From Thioalkalivibrio versutus (GTDB lineage Bacteria > Pseudomonadota > Gammaproteobacteria > Ectothiorhodospirales > Ectothiorhodospiraceae): a stretch of DNA of 64,000 nucleotides. The stretch lies in contig NZ_MVAR01000019.1 of the NCBI RefSeq assembly GCF_001999325.1, forward strand, positions 1 to 64,000. Direction: 5' to 3'. Position numbers and translations under genes: made by a program. Below the pieces are notes generated by a model that made no database searches, was not told the origin of the DNA, and saw only the letters and a program-made list of their open reading frames with translations. Of this stretch, positions 29,863-39,404 are shown in pieces (the first letter of the stretch is position 1; every line of letters begins with the position of its first letter).

Positions 29863-29952
29863 GTGCCGGTCGAGCGCGATCCGTGCGCGGCGGGCAACGG
29901 ATGAGGGCGCTCACCCCCGTCGAGCCCCCGACCGGCCTTGTTGGCTAGAACG

Positions 29953-29987
29953 AAAAAGGCCCCGCGGATCTTCGTCCGCGGGGCCTT
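29953..29987 (-). terminator. Rho-independent terminator of the carbamoyl/amide operon
   Basis: AAGGCCCCGCGGA (29956-29968) pairs perfectly with its inverse at 29975-29987 around a six-base loop. On the minus strand the stem runs into five T (complement of A 29953-29957). It lies 29 bases after the amidotransferase stop codon and closes the eight-gene minus-strand unit. Confidence 0.9.
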
Positions 29988-30015
29988 CTGGGTCACTCGA
30001 GGCTTGCACCCGTGA

Positions 30016-32034
30016 TCAGGCGTGCCAGCCGAACTCCTCGGCCTTTTGCCGCGCCAGCGCCGGGATGTCGGTGGCGACGAACTTGTCGTGCAGCACCTGG
30101 ACCCCGATCATGTGGTTGATCACCGCGTCCAGCTGAACCTGGGTGGCGGCCGGCGTGTCCTCGGACTCGTGCAGCTCAAACACCTGACGCACGCCCTCCG
30201 GGTCCAGCAACCCGGCCTCGGCGACCTTCTCCGGGGACAGATAGCGATCGGCCAGGGCCTTCATCGCCGCCCACTTGACCGGGTCGGTGTGCGCGGGCGG
30301 CGCCATGAAGGCGAACTTCTCGCGCTCGTAGAGCACCTTCGGCAACAGGCCCTTCATCGATTCGCGCAACACGTACTTCTCGGTGGAGCCCTTGATGCGC
30401 ATGGTCGGCGGCAGGTGGGCGGCGAACTCGGCCAGGTGGTGATCGAGGAACGGCGGACGCGCCTCCATCGAATTGGCCATGTCCATGCGGTCGCCGCCCC
30501 AGGTCAGGATCTGGCCCTCCAGCATGGTCTTGATCCAGACGTACTGAGCCTTGTCCAGCGGATGCCGGCCTTCCAGCATGTCGTCATCCAGGGCGTTGGC
30601 AATCGCCTTGCCCGGCTTGTAGTCCTGCATGCGCTCGCGGCGCTTCGGGTGCAGCAGGCCCGGCACGTGGTCGGCCGCGGCCAGCCACGGCTGCAGGCAG
30701 GACGGGGTGAAGCCCATCATCTGCGTGAAGTCGGGGTCGTTGACCTCGTCCTCGGCCAGCATCGCACCAGAGACCAGCTCGTTGGACTCGTTCAGCATCT
30801 GCTGCCAGGCCTGGCGGTCGGCCTCCGGCAGGGTATCCAGGCCGTGCAGGAACATGTCGCGGCGGAAGGCCGGATAGCCGCCGAACAGCTCATCCGAACC
30901 CTCGCCGGTGACGACGACCTTGTAGCCGGCCTTGTTCACGTGGCGGCTCATCAGCAACTTGGCGACACCCAGGGTGTTGTAGATGGTGCGCTCGGCGTGC
31001 CAGAGGGCCTCTTCGAAGTTGTCGTAGAGGTGGTTGGCGTCCAGGGTCATGATGTCCTGGTCGGCACCCACGCTCTCGGCCATCTCGCGGGCGATCGCGG
31101 TCTCGTCATAGTCGTCGTTGTCGAAGCCGATGGTGAAGGCCTTGACCGGCGCCTGCTGGCTGGCCGAGGCCAGCCCCAGGGTGATGCAGGAGTCGATCCC
31201 GCCGGAGAGGTAGCAGGCGACCGGCACGTCGGCCTCCAGGCGCAACTGCACTGCCTCCATGAGCTGGTCGCGCACGCCCTCGATCCAGTACGCCTCGTCG
31301 GTCTCGCTCTCGGGCGGGCGCTCGGAGGCCAGCGGGAAGTCCATGTCCCAGTACTTCTCCTGGCGGATCTTCAGCTTCCCGTGGGCGCGCTCGACGATCA
31401 CCATGTGGCCGGGCTTCACCTGCTGGATGCCTTCGAAGGCGGTGGTGCCGGGCACCATGGTCTGCATCAGCTGGTGGTACAGGCCGTCATCGGAAAACTG
31501 GCGCGGCACATCGGGGTTGGCGAACAGCACCTTCAGCTCGGAGCCGAACACGAAGCTGCCGTTGGCCTCGGTGAAGTACAGCGGCTTGATGCCGAAGCGG
31601 TCGCGGATCAGGATCAGCCGGTCGTGCTTGCGGTCGTACAGCGAGATCGCGAACTCGCCACGGAAATGCTTGACCGCGTCCTCCAGCCCTTCGCGCTGGT
31701 ACAGGTGCATGACCATCTCGGAGTCGCTCTTGGTGCGGAACTTCACCCCGCGCGACGTGAGATCCGTGCGGATGCGCTTGTAGTCGTACAGCTCGCCGTT
31801 GACCGCGGTCATGATCTCGCCGCTGTCCATGCAGAACGGCTGACGGCCGCGGTTCTCGTCCAGGTCGATAATCGACAGACGCGCATGGGAAAAGCCCACA
31901 CCGCGGTCATCCTGGGTGCGGTAACCGAAGCCGTCGGGGCCGCGGTGATACTGGATCGCGGCCATGTTGACCAGGGTTTGCGGGTCGACCTTGCGGGTCG
32001 GGTCGGCGTGAAAGATTCCTGCAATGCCACACAT
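30016..32034 (-). CDS. asnB: AsnB-type glutamine-dependent amidotransferase (asparagine synthetase family)
   Basis: Class II glutamine amidotransferase of 672 residues: catalytic Cys2 (MCGIAG), NGELYDY, then the ATP-pyrophosphatase domain with SGGIDS near residue 270 and GEGSDELFGGYPAF. It transfers glutamine-derived ammonia to a carboxylate activated by ATP. It is about 120 residues longer than E. coli AsnB (554), through extra sequence at about 395-450 and the C-terminus. It ends an operon with a carbamoyltransferase paralogue, a symporter and two hydrolases. The acceptor may therefore not be aspartate; an AsnB-like enzyme also makes the terminal amide of the osmolyte N-acetylglutaminylglutamine amide. 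Confidence 0.88.
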   Translation of the reverse strand: MCGIAGIFHADPTRKVDPQTLVNMAAIQYHRGPDGFGYRTQDDRGVGFSHARLSIIDLDENRGRQPFCMDSGEIMTAVNGELYDYKRIRTDLTSRGVKFRTKSDSEMVMHLYQREGLEDAVKHFRGEFAISLYDRKHDRLILIRDRFGIKPLYFTEANGSFVFGSELKVLFANPDVPRQFSDDGLYHQLMQTMVPGTTAFEGIQQVKPGHMVIVERAHGKLKIRQEKYWDMDFPLASERPPESETDEAYWIEGVRDQLMEAVQLRLEADVPVACYLSGGIDSCITLGLASASQQAPVKAFTIGFDNDDYDETAIAREMAESVGADQDIMTLDANHLYDNFEEALWHAERTIYNTLGVAKLLMSRHVNKAGYKVVVTGEGSDELFGGYPAFRRDMFLHGLDTLPEADRQAWQQMLNESNELVSGAMLAEDEVNDPDFTQMMGFTPSCLQPWLAAADHVPGLLHPKRRERMQDYKPGKAIANALDDDMLEGRHPLDKAQYVWIKTMLEGQILTWGGDRMDMANSMEARPPFLDHHLAEFAAHLPPTMRIKGSTEKYVLRESMKGLLPKVLYEREKFAFMAPPAHTDPVKWAAMKALADRYLSPEKVAEAGLLDPEGVRQVFELHESEDTPAATQVQLDAVINHMIGVQVLHDKFVATDIPALARQKAEEFGWHA

Positions 32035-32129
32035 GGCATGTCTCCTTGGTTATCCGTTCGGGGCGAGCGGGGCGCGGGCCGGGCAGGCCCGGCGCGCCAC
32101 GCCGCTCGCGATTCAACTAAAAGGCGGCG

Positions 32130-33212
32130 TCAGCCGTCCGGGGTATCCATCACCGCGCTGATGCGGCGTACCACCGTGGTCAGCAGCGCCATGCGCACGA
32201 ATACGGCCCCGCGAGCCTGGGCGAAATACCAGTTGTGCGGGGTGGCATCGAGGTCGGTGGACAGCTCTTCACCTCGCGCCAGCGGATGCAGGACCACTGC
32301 GCCCTCCTTCAGCGGGGAGTGGCGATCCAGCTTCAGCCCCTCGCCCATCGCCTCGAAGGTGTCACCCACCCAGGCGATCGCGTTGATGTACACGACATCC
32401 AGATCCGGCAGCGCCGGGTCCAGGTCGTGCACCACGCGTAGCGAGATCCCGGCCTCTTCCAGTTCCTCGCGCTGACCCGGATCGAAATTCTCGTCCTCGC
32501 GCGAGACGAGCACGATCTCGTCGATCGCCTGCGGGAACAGGCTCAACAGGCGCAGCAGGGAGCGCACCGTGCGCATGCGCGAGGGCACCCCGATGATGCC
32601 GACCTTGATGCGCTGCTCCGGGGCCACCTCGCCGGTGAACAGCTCCGGGCGCCACTTGGCCAGGGCGTAGACGTCCGCCAGCGCCTGGGTCGGGTGTTCG
32701 TCGATCCCGTTGCCGGCGTTCACCAGCGGGATGCGCAGGTTCTCCAGCATGTTGTGCGCGGCCTCGCCGTCGGAGGAGCGCAGGACCAGAACATCGCCGT
32801 AGTTGTTGAACATCTCCGCGATGTCCGCCAGCGATTCCCCCTTGGCAATACCGGTGCTCTTGGGGTCGGTAATCGACATGACCGAGCCGCCCAGGCGGTG
32901 CCAGGCACTCTCGAACGACAGCCGCGTGCGCGTGGACGGCTCGTAGAACGCGCTGATCAGGATCTTGCCCGCCAGCGGCAGGTGCATCAGCGCCGGCGTG
33001 GTCTCGTACTGCGCCGCCAGGCGGAACAGCTGCAGCAGCTCGTCGCGCGAGAACTGCTGGCTGGAGACCACATGCGAGGCCGCCAGCTTGAGAAGCGGGT
33101 CGGGGTCTTCCTCCACCGCCGCCAGCAACGCCTTCGGCCGGTCGGTACCGGCGGCGCCGTCTTTCGGGTGGAGCACGTGCAGGGGATCTTCGGTGTAGTT
33201 CACCAGAGGCAT
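32130..33212 (-). CDS. aspartate carbamoyltransferase paralogue with altered substrate site
   Basis: A 360-residue carbamoyltransferase with about 40 extra N-terminal residues. Carbamoyl-phosphate residues are kept: EPSTRTRLSF (S93-R97), Lys124 in IAKGES, Arg145 and His173 in DEHPTQ. Arg214 (MRTVRSL) matches ATCase Arg167. The Arg229 and Gln231 ligands of aspartate, in the TRVQ motif, are replaced by INAIA (276-280), and HPLPR is HPLARGEEL. So it should still bind carbamoyl phosphate but use another, less acidic amine than aspartate. It overlaps the small membrane gene start-to-stop and precedes the amidotransferase. A divergent true PyrB is a less likely alternative. Confidence 0.82.
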   Translation of the reverse strand: MPLVNYTEDPLHVLHPKDGAAGTDRPKALLAAVEEDPDPLLKLAASHVVSSQQFSRDELLQLFRLAAQYETTPALMHLPLAGKILISAFYEPSTRTRLSFESAWHRLGGSVMSITDPKSTGIAKGESLADIAEMFNNYGDVLVLRSSDGEAAHNMLENLRIPLVNAGNGIDEHPTQALADVYALAKWRPELFTGEVAPEQRIKVGIIGVPSRMRTVRSLLRLLSLFPQAIDEIVLVSREDENFDPGQREELEEAGISLRVVHDLDPALPDLDVVYINAIAWVGDTFEAMGEGLKLDRHSPLKEGAVVLHPLARGEELSTDLDATPHNWYFAQARGAVFVRMALLTTVVRRISAVMDTPDG

Positions 33213-33322
33213 CCTTTTTTCCAGTCGCGGATAAACAGGGCAATCAGCAGGATCGGGGTCAGGCTCGCCACCAGTGTGGCGATGATCACGATCACGGACA
33301 GGGCTGTAATGGAGATCGTCAT
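33200..33322 (-). CDS. 40-residue membrane protein, probable symporter accessory subunit
   Basis: A short gene starting at ATG 33322, which overlaps the symporter stop (ATGA), and ending 12 bases inside the carbamoyltransferase start. The product begins MTISITALSVIVIIATLV, is one hydrophobic helix of about 28 residues, and ends with the positive tail RDWKKG. This size and placement match the small accessory proteins found beside sodium symporters. It is probably inserted in the inner membrane with the symporter. Confidence comes from the double translational overlap, not from homology. Confidence 0.7.
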   Translation of the reverse strand: MTISITALSVIVIIATLVASLTPILLIALFIRDWKKGCLW

Positions 33323-34776
33323 GCGGCCACCTCGCCGTCCGGACGGGCCAGGCGGCCCCAGTCGAATGGCCGCGGCATCAGCCAGGTGCTCAGCACCATC
33401 ACGGCCAGCGAGACAGCGGCCCCGACCAGCGCGGCCACATAGAATCCAATCAGGAAGTAGCTGGCCAGGCCAATGCCCGACCCCAGTATCATCGACCAGG
33501 CCGCGCCCTGCGGGTTCGCCCGCTGCCAGTACAGCCCGGCGACGATCGGCCAGATCGCGGAGGCCACGAAGGCGCCGGTGAAGTACAGAAGCTCGGCCAG
33601 CGAGCCGACGATCGGCAGCTCGCCGCGGTAACTGGCCGCCAGCCAGGTCACGAGGCCCAGGAGCACCACGATCACCTTGGTCGCGTGGAACTGGTGCTGT
33701 TCGCTGGCCTGCGGGCGGATGTGGCCGCGGTAGATGTCACGGGTCACCAGGTCCGAGGTGGCCGCCAGCAGCGAGTCGAGACTGGAGGCGAGCGCGGCGA
33801 AGACCACGATGAACACCACGATCGCCCCGGTTAGGCCCAGCACCTCGGCGGCCACCAGCGGCCCGACCATGTCCGCGGCGGGCACGTTGAGGCCCAGCGC
33901 TGGCGTGGCCAGGGCGATGAAGCCGGCCACGATCGGGATTGGCAGCCACAGCAGGCCGCCAAAGAGGTAGGCCCGGAAGCCCACGTTGCGGCCGAAGGCG
34001 AAGGCGCGCGACCACCAGACATTGGAGTGGAAGATCTCGCCGACGCCAAACAGCAGATTGTTGAACAGGAACATGATCGCGGCCGGGAACAGCAGGTTCA
34101 GCAGCTCCGGGCGCTCTTCCATCAGGTTGAAGTGGATCGCCTCGAAGCCGACCTTGTCGATGGTCAGCCAGGCGATGAACGCCGCGCCGGCGATGATGAT
34201 GACGGTCTGGATGAAGTCGGTCCCGATCACCGCGCGCAGGCCGCCCAGCAGGGTGTAGAGCACGCAGACGGTCAAAATCACGGTCATGCCCACGCGGTAG
34301 TCGATGCCGGCCAGGGCGTTGATCAGCACGCCGCCGGCCATCGCCATCGAGACCAGCCAGCCGAAGGCGTAGATCAATGACACCACCAGGAACACCCGCC
34401 AGGTGAATTTGCCGTAGCGCAGCCGGATAAAGTCGCCGGAGGTAAAGCCCTCGGGCATCAGTTCGCGGATACGCCGCGCCAGCGGCGCGAACAGGATCAG
34501 GCCAAGCGCACCCAGCGAGTAGCCGAGCATGCCCCAGACGCCCAGTTGCAGCGCCAGCTGCGGGGCCGTCATCGTGGTGTTGGCGGTGACCCAGGTGGCC
34601 ATCGCGGTGGCGGTGGCCAGCGCCAGGCCAACGTTGCGCCCCGCCAGCATGTGATCCTCGGCGGTCTTGTTGCGACGACCCAGCCACCAGCCCAGCACCA
34701 CCCAGAGGACGCTGAACGCCGCCAGCAGCCCCCAGGCGATGGAGGTCGGGAGGATCGGGTCGTCGAGACCGGTCAC
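33319..34776 (-). CDS. sodium:solute symporter (SSS family)
   Basis: Inner-membrane sodium-coupled uptake system of 485 residues with about 12-13 hydrophobic helices. The SSS features are visible: LGWWLGRRNKTAEDHMLAGR near the N-terminus, TANTTMTAP, GGLRAVIGTDFIQ and ALASSLDSLLAATSDLVTRDIY (sodium site in TM8). The GTG start at 34776 overlaps the stop of the cysteine hydrolase and follows GGAGG. The substrate is unknown; the operon suggests a carbamoylated or amidated amino acid or ureide. Confidence 0.92.
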   Translation of the reverse strand: MTGLDDPILPTSIAWGLLAAFSVLWVVLGWWLGRRNKTAEDHMLAGRNVGLALATATAMATWVTANTTMTAPQLALQLGVWGMLGYSLGALGLILFAPLARRIRELMPEGFTSGDFIRLRYGKFTWRVFLVVSLIYAFGWLVSMAMAGGVLINALAGIDYRVGMTVILTVCVLYTLLGGLRAVIGTDFIQTVIIIAGAAFIAWLTIDKVGFEAIHFNLMEERPELLNLLFPAAIMFLFNNLLFGVGEIFHSNVWWSRAFAFGRNVGFRAYLFGGLLWLPIPIVAGFIALATPALGLNVPAADMVGPLVAAEVLGLTGAIVVFIVVFAALASSLDSLLAATSDLVTRDIYRGHIRPQASEQHQFHATKVIVVLLGLVTWLAASYRGELPIVGSLAELLYFTGAFVASAIWPIVAGLYWQRANPQGAAWSMILGSGIGLASYFLIGFYVAALVGAAVSLAVMVLSTWLMPRPFDWGRLARPDGEVAA

Positions 34777-35516
34777 GAAGCCTCCTGCACCTTCTTGATC
34801 TCGCGGATCGCCTCGTCGGTGGTCATCACGCGGGCGTAGCGGTCCTTGATGGTCGTGAGCGTGGCCTTCTGCATCTCCGGCGTCACCGTGGCCGTGGCGT
34901 CGTCCATCAGGGTGACATAAAAGCCCAGGTCGCAGGCATCCCGCACGGCGGTGGAGACGCACTCGTTGGAATACACGCCCACGATGAACAGCGCGCTGAT
35001 GTTCAGGTTGCGCAGGATGTAGTGGAGGTTGGTGGAGTTGAAGACCCCGCTGGCGGTCTTGTCCAGCACGATCTCGTCCCCGACCGGGGCCACCTGCTCG
35101 ACGAACTCGGCATCCTTGGAGCCGGGGGCCGCATGCAGGTTCAGGCGCTTGTGGCCCGGGCTGCGGTCGCGGCCATCATGCGTCAGCGAGCGGATGCGGG
35201 TATGGATCACCTCCAGCCCCTCTTCGCGGAAGGCGTCCTGCAGGCGGCGCACATTGGGCAGCACCGTCTGCTCCAGGCGATTGAAGTAATACTCCTGGGC
35301 CTCCAGCGGCACGCCAGAGTCGGCGGAGTTCGCGAACACGCCGTGGCCGCGCGCGGCATCCAGATACTGCAAGTCGATGCACAGCAGGGCGACATGGTGC
35401 TCCCGCAACTCCTGACGCAGCACCGGCGTGGTGATCAGGCTTTCCTGGTACTGCTCGCGCAGCGGATCCAGGGAGTCGTAGTCGGTCAACTGGGTGACGT
35501 TGTCGTGTTCGGCCAT
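34773..35516 (-). CDS. isochorismatase-like cysteine hydrolase (amidase)
   Basis: A 247-residue member of the cysteine hydrolase superfamily that includes nicotinamidase, ureidoacrylate hydrolase and N-carbamoylsarcosine amidase. The catalytic triad is complete: Asp48 (LLCIDLQ), Lys153 (VLDKTASGVF) and Cys186 (GVYSNECVSTAVRDA) with the preceding cis-peptide VGVYSN. It should release ammonia from an amide or ureido group. It is coupled to the symporter and 25 bases after the M20 hydrolase. Exact substrate unknown. Confidence 0.88.
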   Translation of the reverse strand: MAEHDNVTQLTDYDSLDPLREQYQESLITTPVLRQELREHHVALLCIDLQYLDAARGHGVFANSADSGVPLEAQEYYFNRLEQTVLPNVRRLQDAFREEGLEVIHTRIRSLTHDGRDRSPGHKRLNLHAAPGSKDAEFVEQVAPVGDEIVLDKTASGVFNSTNLHYILRNLNISALFIVGVYSNECVSTAVRDACDLGFYVTLMDDATATVTPEMQKATLTTIKDRYARVMTTDEAIREIKKVQEAS

Positions 35517-35541
35517 TCCGGGCGCTTCCTCTCGTCGCGAT

Positions 35542-36783
35542 TTATTGCCGAGCGGCCAACGCCAGGGCACTTTGCAGGGTCAGATTGGCGCCGGTCTCGA
35601 TGTCTTCCCAGTTTGTCCATTCCGCGGCGGAATGGCTACGCCCCTGCAGGCTCGGCACGAAGATCATGCCGGTGCGGGTGATGCGGCTCATGCTCTGGGT
35701 ATCGTGGGCTGCACCGCTGGGCATGGTGATGTACTCCAGCCCCATGCGTTCGGCCTGCGCCTCGATGGTCTGCACGACGCCGGGGTCACAGCGCACCGGA
35801 TCGATCTCGGAGAGGACGTCGAACTCGAACATCAGGTCGCGCCGGCGCGCCAGGCTGGACAGGGTGCGCCGGGCCGCATGGGCCAGCGCGGTCAGGACCT
35901 TCTCGTCGGTGTCGCGCACCTCGAAGGAGAAGGTCGCCATGCCCGGCACGGTATTCGCCGCCCCCGGTGCCAGCTCCACGCGGCCGATGGTGGCGCGCGA
36001 GTTCGGACTGCCGTGCTCCTCGATCAGGCGATTGATCTCGCCGCCGAACTCCGCCAGACCCTGGAAGGGATCGATGCGCATGTCCATCGGCGTGGTGCCC
36101 GCGTGGTTGGGCTGGCCCTTCAGGCGCACCTCCCACTTGAACAAGCCGGTGATCGCCTCGACCACCCCGACACTGAGGCCGCGCCGGTCCAGCACCGGGC
36201 CCTGCTCGATGTGGGTCTCGATGAAGGCATGCAGGCTGTGCGGATCGCGCCGCGCGGCCAGCGCGTCGTCGGCGTTCAGCCCCCAGTTGGCCATGGCCTC
36301 GACCAGGGTCACGCCTTCGAGATCACGCGCATGGCTGATGCTCTCCGGGGTCAGCTTGCCGGCCATTGCCTGCGAGCCGAACATGCCGCCGAAACGGCCC
36401 TCCTCGTCGGTGAAGTCGATCACCTCGAGCGGGTACGCGAGGTCGACCGCGTTCTCCTTGGCGGTGCGCAGCACCTCCAGCCCGATCAGCACGCCCAGCG
36501 CCCCGTCCAGCGGACCCCCACCGGGCACCGTATCCAGGTGCGAACCCATGGCCACTACCGGGCGCTTGCCGTCGTAGTCGAGGCGCCCGTGCAGGTTGGC
36601 GGCACCGTCCTGCCAGACATCCAGGCCGGCGGCCTCGAGGCGCCCGCGAAACCACTCGCGCCCGGCGCGGTCGCCGTCGCTGAACGCGCGACGATGCAGG
36701 CCCCGGTCGGCATCGCGGCCGATCTGCGCGAGATCGTTGATGTCCTGCTGCAGGCGCTGCATGTTGATCTTGAGATCCGTCAT
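35542..36783 (-). CDS. M20 zinc hydrolase, N-carbamoyl-L-amino-acid / allantoate amidohydrolase family
   Basis: A 413-residue dinuclear metallohydrolase that removes carbamoyl groups from N-carbamoyl amino acids or ureides. Metal ligands are visible: His82 and Asp84 (GSHLDTV), Asp93 (GPLDGALG), Glu128 (FTDEEG), HIEQGPVL, and GAAHDTQSM near the C-terminus. FVPSLQGRSHSAAEWT is the family end motif. The ATG at 36783 is chosen over upstream in-frame codons. It is the first enzyme gene of the operon. It could be an allantoate amidohydrolase, but no other allantoin gene is present. Confidence 0.9.
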   Translation of the reverse strand: MTDLKINMQRLQQDINDLAQIGRDADRGLHRRAFSDGDRAGREWFRGRLEAAGLDVWQDGAANLHGRLDYDGKRPVVAMGSHLDTVPGGGPLDGALGVLIGLEVLRTAKENAVDLAYPLEVIDFTDEEGRFGGMFGSQAMAGKLTPESISHARDLEGVTLVEAMANWGLNADDALAARRDPHSLHAFIETHIEQGPVLDRRGLSVGVVEAITGLFKWEVRLKGQPNHAGTTPMDMRIDPFQGLAEFGGEINRLIEEHGSPNSRATIGRVELAPGAANTVPGMATFSFEVRDTDEKVLTALAHAARRTLSSLARRRDLMFEFDVLSEIDPVRCDPGVVQTIEAQAERMGLEYITMPSGAAHDTQSMSRITRTGMIFVPSLQGRSHSAAEWTNWEDIETGANLTLQSALALAARQ

Positions 36784-36864
36784 GGATACCTCCGAAAGCG
36801 GGCCCACCCCGGATCACGCGAGAACGTTAGCTCGACACGGATCGGCAGGGCTGGACCAAGTGAA

Positions 36865-37272
36865 TCAGCTGCGCGGACGCCCGCGCAGGATGGCCCCGAT
36901 CAGGACCAGAAAGACGACTGCGCCCACGGCAAAAAAACCGAAGGCTCGGGCCAGGCTGTGATGCTCCACCGACACCATGGCTTGATCGGCCCAGGTGTCC
37001 GGATCGGCATCCGCGGCGCGCAGGCGAAACCGGTAGTCACCATCGGGCAGGCCGCTGATGACCGTGCTGGTATCGCCGCCCCGATAGAGGATGCGCGCAT
37101 CCGCGTGGACGGGACCCGAGGCCTGCTCCAGTACCACGGGCGCATCTGCCTCCCACGCCAGGGTGAAGCCGCCATCCGTTGAGCGCTCGGGTGGCGCATC
37201 AAACGTGGGCTGCGCACCCGCCGCCAGTGGAAGGCAGAGAAGAAACGGCAGCAGCACGCGAAACAATCGCAT
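36865..37272 (-). CDS. small exported membrane-anchored protein
   Basis: A 135-residue protein with an N-terminal signal peptide (MRLFRVLLPFLLCLPLAAGA) and a C-terminal membrane helix (about 108-130) followed by a short basic tail. The domain between is beta-rich with a fibronectin-III-like pattern (FTLAWEADAP, VISGLPDGDYRFRLRAAD), so it is expected to sit in the periplasm anchored at the C-terminus. I do not recognise a family. It lies 22 bases after the marR gene and 81 bases before the M20 hydrolase. Confidence 0.72.
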   Translation of the reverse strand: MRLFRVLLPFLLCLPLAAGAQPTFDAPPERSTDGGFTLAWEADAPVVLEQASGPVHADARILYRGGDTSTVISGLPDGDYRFRLRAADADPDTWADQAMVSVEHHSLARAFGFFAVGAVVFLVLIGAILRGRPRS

Positions 37273-37294
37273 CAGGGCCTCCGCGTCGGACGTT

Positions 37295-37831
37295 TCAGGA
37301 CTTGCCGTCGAACGGCTGCAGGCCGGCCTTGGGCTCGGTGGTATTCATCGCCTCGACCAGCAGGTCCAGGCCCTGGTCCAGCTCCACGAGACGTCCCTTC
37401 GGCAACGACTGCAGGGCGCGGTTCAGTTCGCCCTGCGGGGCGGCCGGCGCCCTCTCCAGCAGTTCCAGCCCGGCATCGGTGACGTAGAGCCGGACGATGC
37501 GCTGGTCCTTTTCCGGGCGCCGGCGCTCGATCAGACCCCGGTGTTCCAGCTTGTCCAGAAGATTGGACGTGGTGGAGGCATGCACCGATAGCCGGCGCGA
37601 CAGGTCGCTGACGTTCAGTCCCGGCGTGCGCTGCAACTCCCACAACGCCCACAGCTGCGAGGCGCTAATGCCACAGGCGCGCTCCACCGACCGCGAATGC
37701 CCCTGCAGGGCGCGGATGATCACGCGCAGCTGGCGGATCACCGACCGCGCGACATCCGGCTCGGCCGGCGCACCGGCAGGGGTGCCGGATTCATCCTGGG
37801 GTGCCTGGTGCACGGCTTGGGTGGAGGTCAT
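37295..37831 (-). CDS. MarR-family transcriptional regulator
   Basis: A 178-residue winged-helix dimeric regulator. The HTH is clear: GISASQLWALWEL, LNVSDLSRRLSVHASTTSNLLDKLEHRGLI and the wing RRPEKDQRIVRLYVT. It is the first gene of the minus-strand unit and has an AT-rich nested palindrome directly upstream, so it probably represses itself and the operon. MarR-type regulators (EctR) also control ectoine osmolyte operons in halotolerant bacteria, a suggestive parallel only. Start 37831 is preferred over a TTG at 37846. Confidence 0.9.
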   Translation of the reverse strand: MTSTQAVHQAPQDESGTPAGAPAEPDVARSVIRQLRVIIRALQGHSRSVERACGISASQLWALWELQRTPGLNVSDLSRRLSVHASTTSNLLDKLEHRGLIERRRPEKDQRIVRLYVTDAGLELLERAPAAPQGELNRALQSLPKGRLVELDQGLDLLVEAMNTTEPKAGLQPFDGKS

Positions 37832-37842
37832 GAAAACTTCTC

Positions 37843-37891
37843 GCAATAAATCATTCGTCTATTTATTTTTGTACAAAAATAGTTTTATTGC
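37843..37891 (-). promoter_or_regulatory. nested AT-rich palindromes, probable MarR operator
   Basis: An 18-base perfect palindrome TATTTTTGTACAAAAATA (37864-37881) is bracketed by GCAATAAA (37843-37850) and its inverse TTTATTGC (37884-37891). The segment is strikingly AT-rich for this genome and ends 12 bases before the marR start codon. It should overlap the promoter and is the best candidate for the regulator's binding site. Confidence 0.75.
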
Positions 37892-38087
37892 AACTCGAGG
37901 TCGAACTGGCGAAATCGCGCCACGGGCTCTAAACAAGTGAGTTGGGGTACCTGCCCCGGCGAGAAACCCGCCTCCCCGCCGGGTGCGAGACGCGTGACCG
38001 AAGGGCCCCGAACCCTCGGGGCCACAAGGAGGAACACGGGGGCGGGTGTGGTGGTCACACCACAGTGCGCCGAGCTCGCGTATCTTG
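37892..38087. other. gene-free region with GC-rich hairpins upstream of the porin promoter
   Basis: Between the marR operator and the porin promoter there is no gene. It holds a stem CCCGGCG/CGCCGGG (about 37953-37982) and a perfect 8-bp stem GGCCCCGA/TCGGGGCC with an ACCC loop (about 38008-38027). Because the best porin promoter lies downstream, these are probably not in the porin leader. GGTGTG-N5-CACACC (38045-38061) could be an operator. Confidence 0.45.
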
Positions 38088-38116: not shown

Positions 38117-38213
38117 CGTTGCCGGCTACGATGAAGACGCACAGACGCGCATTCCGTGTCCGCCCAGGATGGCCTCTGGCGACACCCGAACCGCCCGACC
38201 AGAGAGGATCGCA

Positions 38214-39404
38214 ATGAAGAAGACGATGAGCTGGACCCTGACACCCCTTTCCGGTGCCGTCGCCCTGGCCCTGTTCCTGGGCCCGAATGTCGCTGCCGCG
38301 GAATACGACAGCATCCAGGTCGGCAACCTGTCGATCGGCGGCGCCCTGCGCGCAAACTATGTGGTCGGTGACTACCCCGACTCTGATCGCCGCTCGTGGG
38401 ACAAGGGCGGCAACTTCCTGCTGGACACCGCCCGGATCAATCTCGATTACGAAAATGGCCCCTGGCTCGGGAAACTGGAGTACCGCTGGTACGACGGCTA
38501 CAACATGCTGCACACCGGCTGGGCGGGCTACAACTTCGAGAACGAGAGCCAGCTGCAGGTCGGCGTGAACCGCGTCCCCTTCGGCCCGGGGCCCTACGGT
38601 GTCTCCCAGAGCTGGTTCTTCGACCAGCATTACTATGTCGGCCTGTCCGATGACATGGACCTCGGCGTGAAGTACTCCATGCCGATGGGTGACTGGACCT
38701 GGGACTTCGGCTACTACGCACGGGATGAAGGAAACTATTCCGGCGATACCGAGGACAGCTCGCGGTACTCCTACGATGTCGTCAACGAATCCGGTGACGG
38801 CTACGAAGAACGCAACCAGTTCAATGTCCGCGGTATCTACAGCATCCCGAACGCCAATGCCGATGTCGGCTTCTCGGCGCAGTACGGCGAGCTGAAGAGC
38901 AGGGGCCCGCAAAGTGACGGGGACCACTACGCAGTCTCCGGCCATATGGTCAACAACTGGGGCAACTGGACCCTGGCCAGCCAGCTGACCTATTACAAGT
39001 TTGACGTCGACGAGAACCAGCCGCTGGGCACAGACAAGCTCGTTCAGATGGGCGCCTACGACTTCCCTAACACCGTGGCCGCAGAGGGCTGGATTCCGGC
39101 CGTTTCGCTCAGCTACTACAAGGAAACCAGCAACATCCCATGGCTGGATTACGTGATCCCCTACGCCGAGGTCTCCTCCATCGTGAAGAGCGAGAGCGAC
39201 TTCAACAACAGCGATCTACTGGTTCTAGGGGCGGCCTGGGCGCGGGGTAACTGGTACATCTACACCGACCTGGCCTACTCCAACGGTAACGAGTTCGTGG
39301 GCGGTAACCGTCGCGGCGACAACCCGTTTGGCGATCGCCTTGGGGCCAACGAGGAAGACAACTGGGAAGCCCGAGTGAACATCAACTTTGGTTACTACTT
39401 CTAA
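38214..39404 (+). CDS. outer-membrane beta-barrel porin
   Basis: A 396-residue exported protein with signal peptide (MKKTMSWTL..., cleavage near AAAEY). The mature part is rich in alternating aromatic and polar strands (KLEYRWYDGY, WTWDFGYYARD, FNVRGIYSI), strongly acidic, and ends with the outer-membrane signature Phe (INFGYYF). It resembles phosphate/anion-selective porins of the OprP/O type, but no ion specificity can be assigned. The ATG at 38214 follows AGAGAGGATC. It has its own promoter and terminator. Confidence 0.85.
   Translation: MKKTMSWTLTPLSGAVALALFLGPNVAAAEYDSIQVGNLSIGGALRANYVVGDYPDSDRRSWDKGGNFLLDTARINLDYENGPWLGKLEYRWYDGYNMLHTGWAGYNFENESQLQVGVNRVPFGPGPYGVSQSWFFDQHYYVGLSDDMDLGVKYSMPMGDWTWDFGYYARDEGNYSGDTEDSSRYSYDVVNESGDGYEERNQFNVRGIYSIPNANADVGFSAQYGELKSRGPQSDGDHYAVSGHMVNNWGNWTLASQLTYYKFDVDENQPLGTDKLVQMGAYDFPNTVAAEGWIPAVSLSYYKETSNIPWLDYVIPYAEVSSIVKSESDFNNSDLLVLGAAWARGNWYIYTDLAYSNGNEFVGGNRRGDNPFGDRLGANEEDNWEARVNINFGYYF

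Follow-up and report, generated by a model that had tools for sequence, protein, structure and literature searches.

The closest described counterpart to the system considered here is the synthesis of N-acetylglutaminylglutamine amide (NAGGN), in which AsnO, an AsnB-family amidotransferase with a partner ligase, acts on the alpha-carboxyl of glutamine and helps to make a neutral, N-capped glutamine amide osmolyte. AsnO is named in a passage of PMC13060819. Carbamoylglutamine amide (CGA) was described in 1991, and Ectothiorhodospira marismortui is its named source in the passages of PMC1224877 and PMC3857566 that cite the work; a 2013 review records it from one organism only so far, and a passage of PMC7824335 lists it among the possible solutes of purple sulfur bacteria, where its genes are not given. 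No genes for CGA were found described in the open-access literature, which was judged mostly from titles and abstracts and gives no proof of absence, and an earlier interpretation made from the DNA alone (the sequence-only reading) had been aware of none either. Here, a 64,000-nucleotide stretch of Thioalkalivibrio versutus (assembly GCF_001999325.1, contig NZ_MVAR01000019.1, positions 1 to 64,000; the window, always at its full length) was analyzed, in which a cluster of eight genes probably makes, imports, and recycles CGA, judging from gene content, with glutamine and carbamoyl phosphate as predicted starting compounds and N-carbamoylglutamine as the predicted intermediate. Gene co-occurrence, a changed acceptor pocket, and the species known to produce the compound make this the best available interpretation.

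Open reading frames (ORFs) and profile searches place the eight genes co-directionally on the minus strand, in a unit running from 37831 to 29951, in the order marR, a membrane protein with an FN3 fold, an M20 hydrolase, an isochorismatase-like hydrolase, an SSS-family symporter, a protein of 40 amino acids (aa), a carbamoyltransferase (CTase), and an AsnB-like amidotransferase; the genes that the sequence-only reading had named are all among them. The best named relatives belong to Thioalkalivibrio, and the arrangement recurs across families and therefore does not reflect chance.

The CTase (32130 to 33212, minus strand; PF02729 and PF00185) is predicted to have a new acceptor specificity, for which glutamine is proposed. 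The sequence-only reading had named the lack of any other pyrB in the genome as grounds for giving up its proposal; outside the cluster, the same genome holds pyrB together with pyrR and pyrC, and argF together with argD (names read from translations). In a phylogenetic tree, the cluster CTases form their own clade (support 0.92, 20 members), separate from those organisms' own PyrB and ArgF, and the score of the window enzyme against TIGR00670, the equivalog family of aspartate carbamoyltransferase (ATCase), is 192.6, below the cut-off of 236.95. What the enzyme shares with PyrB is the ATCase fold of its structure model, for which the 50 Foldseek matches listed were all ATCases, together with the carbamoyl-phosphate site and the arginine for the alpha-carboxylate. 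In an alignment of 101 rows (the window and 100 loci, repeated genomes included), S93, T94, R95, and T96 occur in 100 rows, the remaining one being gapped, K124, R145, H173, and Q176 occur in all, and R214, the equivalent of R167 of E. coli ATCase, is conserved. The enzyme differs from PyrB in lying in no pyrimidine operon and in the residues facing the acceptor side chain. The position of E. coli R229 is held by A, S, or T (88, 11, and 2 rows) and that of Q231 by A or S (83 and 18 rows) in all 101 rows, whereas the genome's own PyrB keeps R and Q at these places. N277, I279, and W281 are invariant and form a new N-x-I-x-W motif, and the same invariants appear in a second alignment of 20 rows (19 different named loci besides the window). 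In the E. coli enzyme, R229 and Q231 bind the aspartate side chain and R167 holds the alpha-carboxylate, and carbamoyl phosphate is bound by STRT, an R, HPTQ, and the K of the 80s loop. The simplest reading of this pattern is that the acceptor has a free alpha-carboxylate but a side chain that is not acidic, as would be true of glutamine.

For the AsnB-like protein (30016 to 32034, minus strand; PF00733 at 302.1 bits, PF13537 at 136.8 bits), the predicted reaction is amidation of N-carbamoylglutamine at its alpha-carboxyl. SGG(I/L)DS and (S/T)GEG(S/A)DE are present in 111 of 111 AsnB-like sequences (repeated genomes included), MCGI(A/V)G with the N-terminal nucleophile Cys is found in the aligned part of 102, and EARxPFLD occurs in 67. 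The window protein lies below the cut-off of NF006949 for asparagine synthase B (268.1, cut-off 499), as well as those of TIGR03104 for the NAGGN amidotransferase (306.7, cut-off 570.1) and of the XrtA amidotransferase, and in the tree it groups with neither the NAGGN nor the XrtA enzymes; the broad TIGR01536 is reached (423.8 against 267.1), as it also is by the genome's NAGGN-type and XrtA-type proteins. A true NAGGN-type amidotransferase is encoded outside the cluster (G000:C12:87705-89477, 912 bits against TIGR03104); among 114 genomes sampled from the class, 53 have a member of this family. NAGGN synthesis was considered as the role of the cluster and rejected by score, by tree, and by this separate enzyme, which suggests that Thioalkalivibrio may make two amidated glutamine solutes. 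Compared with the NAGGN system, the N-cap would be a carbamoyl group, set by a carbamoyltransferase, and the cluster AsnB-like proteins stand outside the NAGGN clade.

The original 1991 work on CGA reportedly used the type strain DSM 4180. In a table of PMC8877833, FOUO denotes the genome of E. marismortui DSM 4180. Contig NZ_FOUO01000006.1 of this genome (E. mobilis/marismortui, L078) contains the order marR-M20-amidase-CTase-AsnB-like. Of its three OTCace_N proteins, one falls with ArgF, one with PyrB, and the third is the cluster CTase, so that no other CTase is left unassigned.

Within the family, the CTase was detected in 41 of 47 genomes, the six misses being 58-80% complete, and in all 38 genomes with a completeness of 90% or more and contamination no higher than 5%; a search at the order level repeated the family-level one with the same 47 genomes. 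In a sample of 370 genomes of the class, the CTase (at least 58% identity) and the AsnB-like protein (at least 64%) were each found in 23 genomes, which are the same 23. This count excludes three genomes with only distant CTase relatives at 39-42% identity (G191, G286, G341), a second copy of that kind in G262, and one genome (G165) with only a 41% match to the AsnB-like protein. In the phylum sample, which was drawn differently and with a limit of E 1e-100, only one of 397 genomes, the window's own, had the CTase. Wider sampling came from named loci, taken as the best 80 of 170 relatives, of which 69 are fully flanked (5 kb or more upstream, 2.1 kb or more downstream) and 11 with short flanks were omitted; the 20 family stretches L034-L053 largely duplicate the genomes of these loci, as do some later ones (L210/L080, L233/L085). 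Among the 69, the CTase is linked to the AsnB-like gene in 68, to SSS in 60, to the FN3 protein in 46, and to marR in 25. The M20 gene (at least 50% identity, same strand) is linked in 36 loci and the amidase in the same 36, with no discordant case, whereas 24 loci have no match to either hydrolase in the stretch, hydrolases elsewhere in those genomes not having been sought. All but one of these 24 keep the AsnB-like gene and the symporter, the remaining one being Thiorhodospira; in Thiorhodospira sibirica both the CTase and the AsnB-like gene are kept on one contig, about 0.7 Mb apart. Eight named Ectothiorhodospira loci show marR-M20-amidase-CTase-AsnB-like with no linked symporter, and the cluster genes of spirochaete metagenome-assembled genomes (MAGs) come in a different order. 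Among 18 class stretches that lie outside the family or repeat the named set (L209-L226), 16 hold FN3, M20, amidase, SSS, CTase, and AsnB-like genes together; L216 has neither SSS nor FN3, and L224 has only a 46% M20 match and no amidase. The cultured genera among the 80 named relatives are marine or halophilic, habitats being assigned by organism name. It is fairly likely, with somewhat less assurance than the function of the cluster itself, that CGA is widely used as an osmolyte by bacteria of marine and haloalkaline habitats, namely those of the sampled near-complete genomes of the family, some of the spirochaete MAGs, and Idiomarina, Kangiella and their relatives.

The distant CTase relatives at 39-42% identity (L227-L230; in G286, G341, G191, and G262) have a broken carbamoyl-phosphate motif without STRTR, and no cluster genes were linked to them in the stretches seen; they are possibly non-catalytic or altered enzymes. 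In one Ectothiorhodospira-group genome (L041, G010:C1:1194650-1195683), the CTase is split between two reading frames, which may reflect a frameshift.

The substrates of carbamoylases of the M20 hydantoinase/carbamoylase family carry a free carboxylate. The cluster M20 protein (35542 to 36783, minus strand) exceeds the cut-off of TIGR01879 for this family (366.4 bits, cut-off 204), its best solved relative is the N-carbamoyl-L-amino acid hydrolase 3n5f (E 1.6e-80), and it is itself predicted to be an N-carbamoyl-L-amino-acid hydrolase, but unlike other members it is linked to a carbamoyltransferase. It also differs from ErtE, an N-carbamyl-L-glutamate amidohydrolase, for which it scores 389.9 with a cut-off of 520. 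The neighboring isochorismatase-like cysteine hydrolase (34773 to 35516, minus strand; PF00857 at 114.3 bits) is a predicted amidase, whose nearest solved relatives include the cysteine hydrolase 6xix and the N-carbamoylsarcosine amidohydrolase 1nba; given the latter, it could instead act on the carbamoyl group. Given this preference of carbamoylases for a free carboxylate, the amidase should act before the M20 enzyme.

Certain SSS symporters, such as ActP with YjcH and PanF with YhdT, have small membrane partners. Similarly, the SSS gene of the cluster (33319 to 34776, minus strand; PF00474 at 120.8 bits; TIGR00813 at 151.8, under the cut-off of 184) adjoins a gene for a small membrane protein, but here the partners would be a 40-aa single helix ending in Trp and, in addition, the FN3-fold protein. 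The 40-aa protein (33200 to 33322, minus strand), which ends in RDWKKGCLW and lies between the symporter and the CTase, matches the small symporter partner of the sequence-only reading, to which the FN3 protein between marR and the M20 gene is now added. A scan of 126 stretches, in which a final Trp was required, found an ORF of about 40 aa ending in Trp between the two genes in 91 of the 93 loci where SSS and CTase lie at most 900 bp apart (repeated genomes included), the exceptions being L102 and L107. In Thiorhodospira sibirica, the 40-aa protein is kept beside the CTase, and no SSS match was found in that 19.5-kb stretch. The second candidate (36865 to 37272, minus strand) has a signal-like N-terminus, an FN3-fold domain, and a C-terminal helix (predicted local distance difference test score, pLDDT, of the model 88.8). 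The top matches of its model in the Protein Data Bank (PDB) are mostly FN3 domains (E about 4e-4), and it had no NCBIfam match and no Pfam match above cut-off. It was detected in 46 of 60 SSS-bearing and in none of nine SSS-lacking loci among the 69, suggesting that it is a probable partner of the symporter.

Taken together, these proteins could form a short cycle. The CTase would move the carbamoyl group of carbamoyl phosphate onto the alpha-amino group of glutamine, and the AsnB-like enzyme would then activate the alpha-carboxyl with ATP and amidate it with glutamine-derived ammonia, in the manner of AsnO. The symporter, partnered by the FN3 protein and the 40-aa helix, might recover leaked or external solute at the expense of sodium. 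At low salt or when nitrogen is needed, the amidase would free the carboxyl group and the M20 carbamoylase would release glutamine, CO2, and ammonia. The two synthetic steps would add a carbamoyl and an amide group, and the two hydrolases could remove both in the reverse order. For the claim that the cluster makes, imports, and recycles a carbamoylated, amidated amino acid, support is partial and comes from the separate pyrB and argF, the loss of the pocket for the aspartate side chain, the co-occurrence of the CTase and AsnB-like genes in the class sample, the 24 loci that have the CTase with no linked hydrolase, and the cluster in a strain of the producer species.

Several observations weigh against CGA as the product or against its role as an osmolyte. 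The pocket change fits asparagine or another neutral amino acid equally well. Nine of the 69 loci have only a distant M20 match (43-48% identity, either strand) and no amidase match, which the scheme of recycling by two hydrolases does not predict; they belong to Kangiella, Aliikangiella, Ketobacter, Pleionea sediminis, and Pseudomaricurvus (L090, L093, L097, L099, L102, L107, L120, L126, L133), and the M20 gene is often on the other strand. The glnA gene next to the operon has a counterpart downstream of the AsnB-like gene in only four (L054, L058, L059, L063) of the 18 named loci from Thioalkalivibrio, several of which end short there, and in none of five further stretches, which overlap the same genomes; glnA adjacency was dropped as support for glutamine. 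The Thioalkalivibrio solutes reported in the passages of PMC3072093 are betaine and sucrose, and betaine was also measured according to a passage of PMC8092127. A Raman study of E. marismortui reports no signal that could be attributed to CGA, a reference spectrum having been unavailable to its authors (PMC3857566). For T. versutus D301, whose genome was unchecked here, the table of upregulated nitrogen genes at 0.4 versus 3.0 M sodium (PMC9062515, Table 2) holds none assignable to the operon, although a glnA rises 8.3-fold. The proposal of an osmolyte operon stands in part: the loci without linked hydrolases and the presence of the cluster in the producer strain favor it, and the published Thioalkalivibrio solutes do not.

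Among other explanations, the same chemistry on another amino acid, for example asparagine, is unlikely; the solute would then be a different N-carbamoyl amino-acid amide, and the CGA of E. marismortui would come from elsewhere or from relaxed specificity. The lost side-chain Arg and Gln say only that the acceptor lacks that carboxylate, and the position of the cluster AsnB-like proteins outside the NAGGN clade also speaks for this reading. On the other hand, the related AsnO acts on the alpha-carboxyl of glutamine, the only unassigned CTase in the DSM 4180 genome is that of the cluster, and CGA was the sole N-carbamoyl amino-acid amide met in the literature passages at hand. The product might also be a reserve of nitrogen or carbamoyl groups, stored in nitrogen plenty and freed by the two hydrolases; this has little chance of being correct, even though the proposed product has four nitrogens per six carbons and the M20 and amidase genes are linked together in 36 of the 69 loci with no discordant case. 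A pure store would presumably need no sodium symporter, cultured hosts are salt-adapted, and 24 of the 69 loci, 23 of them with the AsnB-like gene and the symporter, have no hydrolase match in their stretches. In line with such a reserve, T. versutus raises its expression of genes for nitrogen assimilation at high salt, according to a passage of PMC9062515.

The possibility that the sequence-only reading had itself named as its main alternative is a catabolic operon, in which the SSS symporter would take up an environmental N-carbamoyl compound for hydrolysis as a nitrogen source. Taken by themselves, the MarR regulator, the symporter, the M20 carbamoylase, and the amidase would look like a typical set for catabolism, and the nine loci with a distant M20 gene near the cluster could be read in the same way. 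However, the most constant pair, the CTase and the AsnB-like protein, uses carbamoyl phosphate and ATP, the hydrolase pair is linked in only about half of the loci, and the eight named Ectothiorhodospira loci keep hydrolases with no linked symporter. The 24 loci with no linked hydrolase argue against plain catabolism and make it unlikely, its chance being slimmer still than that of a reserve. It is hardly credible that the CTase and the AsnB-like protein are ordinary paralogues from pyrimidine and asparagine synthesis that lie together by chance. The top generic families are indeed aspartate carbamoyltransferase and asparagine synthase, and the listed Foldseek matches point the same way, but the cluster is conserved in content and co-occurrence, and an ordinary PyrB and AsnB were rejected as contradicted by the pyrB and argF sets elsewhere and by pocket residues replaced in all 101 aligned sequences.

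If CGA is the product, the cluster gives a short pathway for this compound and a marker for the microbes that make it, together with a carbamoyltransferase whose acceptor pocket is altered. A nitrogen-rich osmolyte thought to be an oddity would then be widespread in marine and soda-lake bacteria, affecting nitrogen demand at high salt, and the symporter would define an SSS type with two small membrane partners.

The genes of the unit are tightly packed, and the start-to-stop overlaps claimed earlier were confirmed at three junctions: the amidase stop overlaps the SSS start (GTGA, 34776-34773), the SSS stop overlaps the start of the 40-aa gene (ATGA, 33322-33319), and 13 nt are shared by the 40-aa gene and the start of the CTase gene. 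The strong terminator expected at the end of the unit is also present, as an intrinsic hairpin with a U tail at 29951 to 29985 on the minus strand (-30.2 kcal/mol, z -5.9), none of 200 shuffles being equally stable; a simple consensus scan of the window for promoters and terminators did not list this hairpin and was uninformative. At the other end, the MarR-family regulator (37295 to 37831, minus strand; PF01047 at 61.2 bits) starts at ATG 37831, with an upstream TTG at 37846 also possible. Upstream of it, a perfect 18-bp palindrome, TATTTTTGTACAAAAATA (37864 to 37881, not assigned to a strand), is a candidate operator and one of four perfect 18-bp palindromes in the window. The same palindrome, or a form with the symmetric change of TGTACA to TGCGCA, precedes marR in some further loci of Thioalkalivibrio, and imperfect forms occur in others; E. 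shaposhnikovii and E. magna have TGTTATTGTACAAAAACA, a palindrome form with 8 of 9 pairs. No comparable palindrome was found in L049, L075 (E. mobilis DSM 237), L078 (DSM 4180), or L079 (E. haloalkaliphila), the last three having only a shorter TTTGTGCAAAA. MarR probably binds the palindrome before its own gene and controls the unit.

Divergent from the unit, a gene on the plus strand (38169-39404) encodes a 411-aa outer-membrane protein that looks porin-like by eye and had no Pfam match at E 1 and no NCBIfam match at E 0.001. Between this gene and marR lies a 20-nt GC-rich hairpin, GGCCCCGAGGGTTCGGGGCC, at 38004-38023.

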